Source: a virus. Taken from it: a stretch of 20,807 nucleotides of DNA. Location: the IMG/VR virus record IMGVR_UViG_3300028025_004346, positions 1 through 20,807 of that record; one strand, given 5' to 3'. The notes beneath the pieces were generated by a model that was not told the DNA's origin, did no database searches, and worked only from the letters and a program-made list of their open reading frames with translations. The position numbers and the translations under genes are program-made. Of the stretch, positions 13,897-20,379 are shown in pieces; positions within the stretch are counted from its first letter, which is position 1, and the number at the start of each line of letters is the position of its first letter.

Positions 13897-14505
13897 ATGG
13901 AAAACATCAAGAACTTGGCGAAAGCTTTGGTTAAAGCAACCGCCCAAATCGAAGGAGCTTCTAAGGACAGCACCAATCCTCACTTCCGCAACAAGTACGC
14001 CGATCTTGCGAGCGTTACGGATGCGATCAAAAAGCCGTTAAACGATCACGGTTTAACGTACTCGCAAATCATTCACCGCTTAGATGGAGGTGTTGGCGTA
14101 GAAACGCTTATCATTCATGAGTCGGGTGAAACTATGAGCAACGGTATTACGTTCGTTCCAGCGCCTAAAAACGACCCACACGGGTACGGTAGTGCGTTGA
14201 CCTATGCTCGCCGTTATTCCCTTTCTGCTTGCTTCGGAGTTATCCAAGAAGACGATGACGCGAACGGTGCAACTAATAAGTTACCAACGCAAGTGCCTAA
14301 CAAGCCCATCACCAAACCAAGTGCACCACAAACCAAGCAAGCCCAGGTTAAGGAATTACAGCCATTCACCGAGGAAAAGTATTTGAAGCTTGTAGAACTT
14401 CACGAAACCGATCCTACCCTATTGGAAAAAACGTGTGAGTACTACCGGATTACCCAAGAATGGAAGGAACGTTTTTACAAGGACACTAACAAGATTTGGA
14501 AATGA
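13897..14505 (+). CDS. erf: ERF-family single-strand annealing recombinase
   Basis: A 202-aa protein with the clear ERF pattern: 'NPHFRNKYADLASV' at residues 27-40, a beta-rich middle ('GVGVETLIIHESGETMSNG'), and 'GYGSALTYARRYSLSACFGV' at 96-115 followed by 'EDDDANGA'. ERF proteins bind single-stranded DNA and anneal complementary strands in phage recombination and genome circularisation. The C-terminal third (about 127-202) is a Pro/Lys/Gln linker and a short helical part. Transcribed from its own early promoter with a leader of about 18 nt. It heads an operon that includes HTH and HNH proteins. Confidence 0.93.
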   Translation: MENIKNLAKALVKATAQIEGASKDSTNPHFRNKYADLASVTDAIKKPLNDHGLTYSQIIHRLDGGVGVETLIIHESGETMSNGITFVPAPKNDPHGYGSALTYARRYSLSACFGVIQEDDDANGATNKLPTQVPNKPITKPSAPQTKQAQVKELQPFTEEKYLKLVELHETDPTLLEKTCEYYRITQEWKERFYKDTNKIWK

Positions 14506-18040: not shown

Positions 18041-18805
18041 ATGACTATCAAGCAAATGGAAAAAAAAGATGCTATCAAGTATCTAACCAATCAACTCCTA
18101 AACCTTTACTCCTACTTTGGAAACAATGTCGGTGTTGATGACAATCTAATTCGCCAGGTGACCACCCTTCAAGAAGACCTCGAAGTGTATCACTCACTCA
18201 CAACCGAGCAATTTGAAGAAGCTTTGAAGTTCGGACGTAGAAACTCAAGCGATTCATTCAAGCCTTCAATCCGGTTAATCATTCAATGGGTTTCCCAGTA
18301 CATGGTCCGTTTCAACAAATCAAACCACACCATTCACCAACTACCCGCAGTTCAAACCGACCAAAAGAAATACGACATCAAATACCCAATGTCACAGCGC
18401 AAAGCATGGATCGTTTCTTCCTACCGGCAATACCACGAAAACAACTGCGACATGGCCAAGTTCTTTGACTTTGGTGGGGTAACGTACGAAGCAATCTACA
18501 AACACCACAGCTACGGTCTAACCAAAGAGCAAAAGGATTACTGCTTCGAAATGGCAAAGCGGTTGAACTTAACGATCATGCTTGGTTCCCTGGTGAATCG
18601 TGGCGGTGACCAAAGCGACTTCCGGAACAATGCCAGTGCGTGCGCCTATGCTTGCAAACTATTCTTCGACCAATTCAAAACCGAATCGGAATTGAGAACG
18701 GAATTGATGTACCATGAACCGGTAAACAAAGATCACTTCGTTGCAGCTTACGAAAAGACCCCACTCCTGGTGAACTATTTTGAAAAAAGAAACCAACCCT
18801 TTTAA
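18041..18805 (+). CDS. Hypothetical replication-region protein
   Basis: A 254-aa soluble protein that starts 7 nt after the initiator stop; ATG 18041 follows an A-rich leader, with 18056 as an alternative. It is helical with many Tyr, Phe and His: 'DAIKYLTNQLLNLYSYFG' at the N-terminus, 'PSIRLIIQWVSQYM' near 75-90, and a C-terminal part 'MAKRLNLTIMLGSLVN', 'CAYACKLFFDQFK'. No Walker A, DnaB, DnaC or primase motif is seen, so a helicase or loader cannot be claimed. Its position right after the initiator suggests a role at the origin, for instance as a partner protein, but this is only context. Confidence 0.7.
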   Translation: MTIKQMEKKDAIKYLTNQLLNLYSYFGNNVGVDDNLIRQVTTLQEDLEVYHSLTTEQFEEALKFGRRNSSDSFKPSIRLIIQWVSQYMVRFNKSNHTIHQLPAVQTDQKKYDIKYPMSQRKAWIVSSYRQYHENNCDMAKFFDFGGVTYEAIYKHHSYGLTKEQKDYCFEMAKRLNLTIMLGSLVNRGGDQSDFRNNASACAYACKLFFDQFKTESELRTELMYHEPVNKDHFVAAYEKTPLLVNYFEKRNQPF

Positions 18806-19288: not shown

Positions 19289-19456
19289 AAGGGAACAAAA
19301 CCAATGATTCAATCCTTTTAAAGACCAGTTAAGACATTGCGCTCGAAGTACAAGAGATCGTAGTTCCTCAACCTCTGTGATTAAGTTGAGCGGGATCGTA
19401 AGCCCGATAGGTTGGCAACTGACCTACTGACCCTTGATAGGCAATAGTTGCAACAT
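19289..19456 (+). other. Non-coding stretch with tandem hairpins
   Basis: This is the first half of a gene-free stretch of about 343 bp (19289-19631). A weak inverted repeat TTAAAAGG/CCTTTTAA spans 19285-19321. Three hairpins then follow almost without gaps: CTCAAC (19367-19372)/GTTGAG (19385-19390), CGGG (19391-19394)/CCCG (19403-19406) with loop ATCGTAAG, and TAGGT (19408-19412)/ACCTA (19422-19426). The set resembles the arms of a tRNA, but no acceptor stem or TTCRA loop is found. It may be part of a structured RNA together with the tRNA-like element just downstream. Confidence 0.4.
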
Positions 19457-19537
19457 AGTCAGGTAATGCGTAATGTGAAAATGGCATCACATCCTTAGGT
19501 GGTTGCATCGTTGTAGGTTCGAGCCCTACCCTGACTA
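19457..19537 (+). tRNA. tRNA-like element 1, anticodon arm non-canonical
   Basis: Acceptor AGTCAGG (19457-19463) pairs perfectly with CCTGACT (19530-19536), discriminator A, no CCA. The T arm is canonical: GTAGG, loop TTCGAGC, CCTAC (19513-19529). The D region can pair ATGC/GCAT with a 14-nt loop lacking a normal GG. The anticodon region fits poorly. ATCAC/GTGGT leaves an 8-nt loop (ATCCTTAG); alternatively the loop CTTAGGT, usual for Leu(UAG), has a stem with only three pairs. It is either a decayed tRNA or a tRNA mimic. Amino acid not assigned. Confidence 0.5.
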
Positions 19538-19631
19538 CTTTGGGTTGGTTAGTACTATACGTTTTCGGGCTTTGTGTCCGTGCCGTTATAGAAGCACAAA
19601 ATTTCAATTAACAACTAAAATTAAATAAAAG

Positions 19632-19883
19632 ATGAAAAGGTCAATTAAAGCACTAAAGCAGGCATGGCACAAAACCCGTGTTATACGCAGGCATTTTCAT
19701 TTACATTGGTTTAGCAAGTATTGGTGGCAATATTTACTTGAAAAACCAAAGAATAAAGAATGGTGTAATTGGTGGGAAAGATTTTGGTGTAGAGCATCAA
19801 GTCATCCAGATGGAGTTTGGTATTATTCAAGTGGGAGTTGTCCAGATATGAGGTGTAAAAGGTGTGGTGACGACTTGGGATAA
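19632..19883 (+). CDS. Small Cys/Trp-rich protein, possible zinc ribbon
   Basis: An 83-aa basic protein flanked by two tRNA-like elements. The N-terminus is basic with His and Trp ('AWHKTRVIRRHFHLHWFSKYWW'). Cys45, Cys53, Cys70, Cys75 and Cys78 are present, the last three in 'SCPDMRCKRCGDDLG', which looks like half of a zinc ribbon. I recall short proteins with this 'PDM.CK.CGDDLG' ending in Bacteroidota genomes, without known function. ATG 19632 follows an A-rich leader. Composition (A/T-rich, AGA codons, TGT/TGG rich) differs from the core phage genes, so it may be a later acquisition together with the tRNA-like elements. Confidence 0.66.
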   Translation: MKRSIKALKQAWHKTRVIRRHFHLHWFSKYWWQYLLEKPKNKEWCNWWERFWCRASSHPDGVWYYSSGSCPDMRCKRCGDDLG

Positions 19884-19919
19884 TGCTTGCGTATAACAAC
19901 GAATAGAGGAAGTACAAAT

Positions 19920-20046
19920 AGTCAGGTGGCGGAATGGTAGACGCAAATGCCACTCGGAGAAGAAGGAACTACGCCAACATCTCCTTGCAAGTGGTAGGGT
20001 ATCCTAAAGAGTAAATCCCATACAGGTTCGAGTCCTGTCCTGACTG
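19920..20046 (+). tRNA. tRNA-like element 2, Leu-type with about 40 extra nt
   Basis: Acceptor AGTCAGG (19920-19926)/CCTGACT (20039-20045), discriminator G, no CCA. T8 is present. The D arm GCG-GAATGGTAGA-CGC (19929-19944) is typical of class II (Leu/Ser) tRNAs. The T arm is ACAGG, TTCGAGT, CCTGT (20022-20038). At 127 nt it is about 40 nt longer than a normal tRNA-Leu. GCCAC (19949-19953) pairs with GTGGT (19991-19995), extendable to 7 pairs, but the enclosed loop is far too long and holds an inner GGAGA/TCTCC hairpin. Removing 19955-19984 would leave a 7-nt loop TTTGCAA. A large variable arm (GGG/CCC) follows. Amino acid not assigned. Confidence 0.58.
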
Positions 20047-20058
20047 CAAAACAAAAGC

Positions 20059-20379
20059 ATGATTAAACGCTCAAAATACAACAACAAGAAAACAATTATT
20101 GACGGCATCACCTTCGATAGCAAGAAGGAAGCCGATAGATACGTTTCTTTGACGCTTAGAGCGAAGATCGGGGAGATACTGGACTTACACCTTCAGACGC
20201 CCTTTGTCTTCGCTTTAGACGGCAAAAAAATGTTCACGTACAAAGCCGACTTCGTTTACTACGACAAAACGCTAAGCAAGACGATTATTGAAGACGTGAA
20301 GGGTATGCGAACTCCGTTGTACAAACTGAAAAAGAAACTGATCGAAAACCAACACAAAATCACAATCACGGAAACATGA
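20059..20379 (+). CDS. DUF1064 family protein, PD-(D/E)XK nuclease fold
   Basis: A 106-aa protein with the DUF1064 pattern: 'SKYNNKKTIIDGITFDSKKEADRY' (5-28), a 'GEI' turn (38-40), 'LQTPFVF' (45-51), 'YKADFVYYD' (61-69) and 'IIEDVKGMRT' (76-85). Glu24, Asp64, Asp79 and Lys81 fit the metal-binding and catalytic set of PD-(D/E)XK nucleases. Phage members of this family are thought to be structure-specific nucleases, such as a junction resolvase for recombination, which would suit the ERF annealing protein in this genome. Start ATG 20059, shortly after the second tRNA-like element; the stop overlaps the next start by ATGA. Confidence 0.85.
   Translation: MIKRSKYNNKKTIIDGITFDSKKEADRYVSLTLRAKIGEILDLHLQTPFVFALDGKKMFTYKADFVYYDKTLSKTIIEDVKGMRTPLYKLKKKLIENQHKITITET

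Follow-up and report, generated by a model that had tools for sequence, protein, structure and literature searches.

The virus record IMGVR_UViG_3300028025_004346 from IMG/VR, analysed here over positions 1–20,807 (a stretch of 20,807 bases, hereinafter the window), carries two transfer RNA (tRNA)-like elements that belong to an apparently undescribed, large family of phage RNAs. A sequence pattern search places element 1 at 19457–19536 (80 nucleotides (nt), discriminator A at 19537) and element 2 at 19920–20045 (126 nt, discriminator G at 20046). Each has a perfect 7-base-pair (bp) acceptor stem, AGTCAGG/CCTGACT, together with a perfect T arm with TTCGA, and hence the 7-bp acceptor and TTCRA-loop T arm that characterize a canonical tRNA. 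The first-pass annotation of this DNA had recognized the pair at these positions by the common acceptor and T arm, and its length of 127 nt for element 2 corresponds to the 126 nt plus the discriminator. ARAGORN calls neither element a tRNA, and the relaxed model search that had been recommended gives the same picture, the Rfam tRNA model (RF00005) matching neither of them even at E ≤ 1. The elements and their components are as follows:

19457–19537, plus strand: element 1, a tRNA-like RNA (E1 type) of 80 nt followed by A73 and then C74, from pattern match and covariation
19457–19463, plus strand: 5′ strand AGTCAGG of the element 1 acceptor, pairing 7/7 with 19530–19536, three pairs being compensated in relatives
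19466–19469, plus strand: 5′ strand ATGC of helix P2 of element 1, pairing with 19505–19508, with 4/4 pairs altered on both sides in relatives
19473–19492, plus strand: hairpin P3 of element 1, 19473–19477 pairing with 19488–19492, loop AAAATGGCAT with a D-loop-like GG, two double-changed pairs
19493–19502, plus strand: short helix P4 of element 1, CC (19493–19494) with GG (19501–19502), invariant pairs
19513–19529, plus strand: T arm of element 1, GTAGG-TTCGAGC-CCTAC, 3–4 double-changed pairs
19920–20046, plus strand: element 2, a tRNA-like RNA (E2 type) of 126 nt followed by G73 and then C74
19929–19944, plus strand: Leu-like D arm of element 2, GCG/CGC, loop GAATGGTAGA, in both the minimum-free-energy and the centroid fold
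19948–19996, plus strand: two-part long hairpin of element 2 replacing the anticodon arm, UGCCACU/AGUGGUA and GGAGA/UCUCC, predicted fold
19997–20019, plus strand: variable-arm-like hairpin GGG...CCC of element 2, ending 2 nt before the T stem, predicted fold with a geometry enriched family-wide
20022–20038, plus strand: T arm of element 2, ACAGG-TTCGAGT-CCTGT, from pattern match and predicted fold

The E1 type comprises 29 unique members, and its fold was compared over 15–16 relatives. RNAalifold and pair counting agree on a structure composed of the acceptor, P2, P3, the 2-bp P4 and the T arm, with no anticodon arm; thus, the 5-bp arm with an 8-nt loop that had earlier been offered for element 1 is not a conserved structure. 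Across 16 sequences, 96.7% of the cells pair and 13 pairs are changed on both sides, which 0 of 500 shuffles attain, and control structures that were slid out of register fall to 33–43% paired. The covariance model R1 gives element 1 a score of 100.5 bits. Covarying changes of the kind that the first-pass annotation had suggested seeking are also present in the acceptor, three of whose pairs are compensated in E1-type members (loci L056 and L078; L numbers denote individual loci throughout). In certain E1-type elements the P4 loop is replaced by a recurring module of about 40–50 nt (ACACCACGGTCCA...TGGACGCGAGAAGT; L316, L364, L400, L101 and L115), suggesting that the bodies, i.e., the parts held between the conserved ends, are modular too.

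Element 2 is predicted to fold as a five-armed, class-II-like cloverleaf in which the two-part hairpin stands in for the anticodon arm and the GGG/CCC hairpin for the variable arm. The hairpin noted earlier at the anticodon-loop position agrees with this predicted fold, and the GGAGA/TCTCC pairing appears as GGAGG/CCTCC in a relative (L370).

The first 25 nt of element 2 have at least 120 exact matches in IMG/VR, and among those listed nearly all show a matching T arm and acceptor strand 72–161 nt from the start, with unrelated sequence between. We scanned viral contigs three times by pattern and once by protein and collected 409 loci, mostly from unrelated uncultivated phages, with 670 elements, 542 of them valid and unique (AGTCAGG/CCTGACT or near variants) after one blank entry had been removed from a table of 543. 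These represent about 363 unrelated middle types, 278 of which are singletons, and the Chao1 estimator puts the number of middle types at about 1,090. A chance origin is excluded because six permuted acceptor stems give 0 matches over 3.5 Mb as compared to 556 for AGTCAGG/CCTGACT. As the loci were fetched mostly via the acceptor sequence, its invariance looks greater than it is, and other acceptors do occur. Non-canonical tRNA-like elements with the acceptors CGGCACA, AACCGAG, ACGTGGT, AGCAAGA and GGTGAGA (L055, L096, L100, L204, L033, L307, L017 and L102) indicate that the class is wider than AGTCAGG. The carriers are diverse, since the loci have few genes in common (the commonest open reading frame (ORF) cluster is found in 24 of 135 loci), and no gene constantly adjoins the elements in these 135 loci.

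Since the same acceptor accompanies about 363 bodies that have no relation to one another and are spread over hundreds of phages, the simple duplication formerly read from the shared stems is not supported. Nor do tRNAs with an insertion or intron serve as a general explanation: element lengths range from 64 to more than 160 nt, and members of 64–68 nt could not accommodate a tRNA together with an insert or intron. Some relatives do score 30–47 bits with the Rfam tRNA model, as compared to about 48–75 bits for real tRNAs, so that members of the family may sit in databases as odd tRNAs. While these weak scores and the Leu-like D arm would suit intron-containing or decayed tRNA genes, canonical bodies with an AGTCAGG acceptor are very rare, and bodies are retained in different phages, where they show compensatory changes; we therefore regard this reading as already largely refuted and extremely improbable.

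Across the family, the nucleotides behind the tRNA tertiary contacts are retained: U8 is found in 524 of the 542 members and, among the 433 with a D-arm start, A14 in 410, the D-loop GG in 409 and U48 in 362. A C nearly always follows the discriminator, as it does in the majority of genuine tRNAs from these loci, whereas the T stems differ among members (ACAGG/CCTGT, GTAGG/CCTAC, GTGGG/CCCAC and others). An anticodon arm with U33 is detected in 2.2% of the types as against 1.4% of shuffled middles and 81% of the real tRNAs in the same loci. As the bodies hold no anticodon arm above chance, decoys for anticodon-cutting nucleases, one of the roles earlier entertained, are unlikely. The middles have one rule in common, namely a helix that stops exactly 2 nt short of the T stem, in the manner of the class II variable arm; this helix attains at least 7 Watson–Crick pairs in 17 types (0.6 in shuffled sequences).

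Between the most divergent pairs within types, the acceptor differs by 2.5%, the T stem by 7.9%, the D region by 13% and the middle by 15%; the ends do not decay as fast as the middle, which bears out the earlier supposition of selection on the acceptor/T-arm half. Moreover, L061 and L068 have the same 138-nt body, but in L068 its acceptor is GGTGAGA/TCTCACC, amounting to three compensatory changes, and L121/L125 have AGTTAGG/CCTAACT. Along with the compensated E1-type pairs, these variants indicate that the acceptor acts as a helix in RNA, its exact sequence being preferred but not compulsory.

The strong retention of the acceptor and T arm might alternatively mean that the elements are top-half decoys, which soak up enzymes acting on these parts (e.g., tail-cutting defence nucleases) and in which the body is filler. 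Such a role would be consistent with Cas12a3, which loads tRNA via the acceptor, tail and T arm (PMC12851939). However, filler should neither covary nor swap as conserved types, and E1 bodies covary while the E2 body of the window recurs in a 75-kb phage; further, real phage tRNAs already offer the same top half. Accordingly, we view decoys as unlikely.

A Leu-like D arm is found in about half of the members and A73 in most, and these, along with the class-II-like hairpin, raise the prospect of charged non-decoding tRNAs: a synthetase, with leucyl-tRNA synthetase (LeuRS) as the candidate, would charge them via the elbow and the amino acid would be used outside normal decoding. E. coli LeuRS does not read the anticodon, which would favour this. 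Yet, element 1 lacks a D arm of the Leu type, and the discriminator in element 2 is G73; the bodies are far too diverse to fit a single synthetase, and there is no excess of tag-like ORFs. We hence deem this reading quite unlikely. Mini-ORFs or tags like those of transfer-messenger RNA (tmRNA) were also considered as content of the bodies and rejected, small ORFs numbering 53 as compared to 57 in shuffles.

The D region shows variations of its own. In some elements the D loop holds extra hairpin modules that are related across different types (L370, L336, L066, L106, L405, L372 and L227), and a type of 91–92 nt has a second complete T-arm-like hairpin (GTCGGTTCGAGTCCGAT) at the D-arm position (L026, L060, L101, L353 and L227).

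All elements that lie within 1 kb of a canonical tRNA are on the same strand as it (281/281, of 670 elements), and all elements of one locus are on one strand (171/171); arrays combining a nearly full tRNA set with eight elements exist, such as L117 with its 26 tRNAs. The genes of the window that adjoin the swap site or may bear on the exchange of elements, and the ORF between the two elements, are as follows:

20059–20379, plus strand: Holliday-junction-resolvase-like gene (phrog_190, E = 1e-34)
13897–14505, plus strand: Erf-like single-stranded-DNA-annealing protein (phrog_2324, E = 5e-46)
19632–19883, plus strand: Cys-rich ORF of 83 amino acids between the elements, with a zinc-ribbon-like C-terminus (CPDMRCKRCG) and no PHROG match

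Closely related phages differ at the site that lies 13 nt 5′ of the resolvase-like gene, where they have an element of 68, 72, 73, 80, 81, 96, 121, 122, 123, 126 or 158 nt, or none. L122 and L124, for instance, are identical over 86/86 nt upstream and 84% identical downstream, while their middles are unrelated (12%), and the site is empty in L132 and L141–L151. In L134, L144 and L152 this site is taken by the E1 type, and the E2 type is also found in L052, a 75-kb tRNA-rich phage contig with 15 tRNA calls, with a body identical to that of the window. Given different elements or none at one fixed site, the elements behave as exchangeable cassettes, and the Erf-like protein could drive the exchange at the conserved ends of 24–25 nt.

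The filled and empty sites, and the presence of the same types at several sites, would also be expected of selfish or neutral cassettes, that is, a recombination hot spot or miniature mobile element bounded by AGTCAGG/CCTGACT and of no advantage to its phage. Chimeras of bodies point the same way, such as element e67 of L392, which joins a tRNA-Ile(TAT) body, including its anticodon arm, to AGTCAGG/CCTGACT ends and so combines a genuine tRNA with the family acceptor. Nevertheless, the compensatory changes in both body and acceptor, the strict co-orientation with tRNAs and the retention of tRNA tertiary-contact nucleotides speak against such cassettes, and we hold this reading to be very unlikely.

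Building on the architecture, family size, tRNA co-orientation, covariation and cassette swapping, which can be read directly from the sequences, we propose as the probable interpretation that these are non-coding phage RNA genes, in which a natural tRNA scaffold, matured by the host, carries fast-changing functional RNA bodies that are exchanged as cassettes. The top half (acceptor stem, T arm, usually the D arm, and the tRNA-elbow nucleotides) would be kept and the anticodon domain replaced by an unrelated body. From this we infer the likely course of transcription, processing, stabilization and recombination and the purpose of the bodies. Transcription of the elements would run the same way as that of the phage tRNAs, and host RNase P, 3′-end nuclease and CCA addition would release and protect the RNA because it looks like a tRNA from the acceptor side. 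tRNA-processing enzymes recognize chiefly the acceptor/T-arm side; hence, they would be expected to free and cap these RNAs as they do tRNAs, and the mimicry for processing suggested in the first-pass annotation remains plausible. The specific function might then reside in the body, often closed by the helix that stops 2 nt short of the T stem, through its binding to a factor of the host or the phage. Phages would trade bodies as cassettes, with single-strand annealing at the conserved ends of 24–25 nt as the probable recombination route, and the diversity of the bodies would be kept by selection, most simply through phage–host conflict. By analogy, the diversity of the bodies and their exchange resemble anti-defence loci; this purpose is the weakest step of the proposal, since no target of a body was found among phage loci, tmRNA and RNase P RNA. 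More tentatively, we posit that the tRNA top half may be a standard chassis for an open-ended set of exchangeable RNA effectors, estimated at more than 1,000 types, which would each inhibit or commandeer a host factor of its own, as an RNA counterpart of interchangeable anti-defence gene cassettes.

Certain observations weigh against the proposal. ARAGORN finds no canonical tRNA in the whole window. The bodies are clearly structured in only some members (mean z of the middles alone −0.76) and show no excess complementarity to phage loci or to the tmRNA and RNase P RNA of a Bacteroidota genome. If the ends serve processing only, the near-constancy of the acceptor sequence is left without an explanation, part of that constancy being search bias. 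As for antisense guides, a candidate that was rejected, the middles beat shuffles at phage loci only through unmasked further copies of the elements. The k-mers common to bodies are weak ones.

Several known RNAs offer precedents for parts of this architecture. Bacterial Y RNAs of the YrlA type are non-coding tRNA mimics tied to Ro60/Rsr proteins. Canonical tRNAs (RF00005), especially class II tRNA-Leu, have in common with the family the acceptor, D arm, T arm, U8/A14/U48, N73-C74 and a hairpin that stops 2 nt short of the T stem, but the family is without their 5+7+5 anticodon arm with U33. In tmRNA, too, a tRNA-like acceptor/T-arm domain is retained while the anticodon region is replaced; unlike tmRNA, the family has U3-A70 rather than G3-U70, is far shorter, and shows neither an excess of tag ORFs nor a match to Rfam tmRNA. 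Engineered tRNA scaffolds (e.g., PMC3753655) likewise have a foreign RNA substituted for the anticodon arm of a tRNA whose top half is retained, but these are man-made, whereas the family is natural, diverse and phage-borne.

The closest architectural precedent is rnaC (species 1 RNA) of phage T4, an expressed RNA of unknown function (PMC9697503) that, with rnaD, is a stable RNA of the T4 tRNA cluster. It combines a tRNA-like T arm (CCGGG-TTCGAAT-CCCGG) and an acceptor-like strand at its 3′ end with long hairpins instead of the anticodon arm. It lies in a tRNA cluster; many elements of the family (281 of 670) have a tRNA no more than 1 kb away, but those of the window do not. In contrast to the family, rnaC has an acceptor pairing of only about 5/7, and about 700 T4-like records show it as a single conserved RNA instead of hundreds of swapped bodies with a common acceptor. 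No sequence relation between rnaC and the elements was found: searches with rnaC retrieve enterobacterial T4-like phages, while searches of cultured phages with the elements give only short matches of T-arm size. If our proposal is true, it would provide a general answer to a 50-year-old loose end, namely the stable RNAs without known function in phage tRNA clusters, such as rnaC. Phage tRNA arrays would then be home to a further large class of RNAs, which evolve fast, do not decode and are either passed over by standard tRNA finders or misannotated as unusual tRNAs; if the bodies act against host factors, these RNAs would form a large natural reservoir of RNA inhibitors on a tRNA scaffold.

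The family as such is not in Rfam, and we found no description of such a sequence or kind of RNA in the open-access literature, so that an earlier account may have been missed. A scan of about 85,000 prokaryote genomes gave four contigs, all in metagenome-assembled genomes (MAGs). The family was not found in 395 Bacteroidota genomes, where weak covariance hits reach at most 39 bits, as compared to 82–102 bits for true E1 members, and the ten best, when checked, are ordinary tRNAs. A host tRNA with an AGTCAGG acceptor is likewise absent from 296 Bacteroidota genomes, except for one phage-like contig. The hosts are likely Bacteroidota, to which A-rich, Shine–Dalgarno-poor gene starts and two Chitinophagaceae MAG contigs weakly point.

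The surroundings of the elements show further features. An Rfam sR39 match at 18131 is below threshold and was taken as chance. The DNA of the Cys-rich ORF accompanies the E2-type element in several phages, and the upstream flank is nucleotide-identical in other E2 carriers. A recurring spacer with a small hairpin (GACAGCTTGGAAAGACAAGCAACAT) lies directly 5′ of many swap-site elements (L122, L124, L126, L131, L133, L136 and L139). A little upstream of element 1, at 19334–19450, is a second conserved RNA, probably structured, with the hairpins CTCAAC/GTTGAG, CGGG/CCCG and TAGGT/ACCTA. It precedes other elements in L131 and L154, stands without any element in L153 and L155, and in L131 shows a compensatory change of CGGG/CCCG to CCAG/CTGG.
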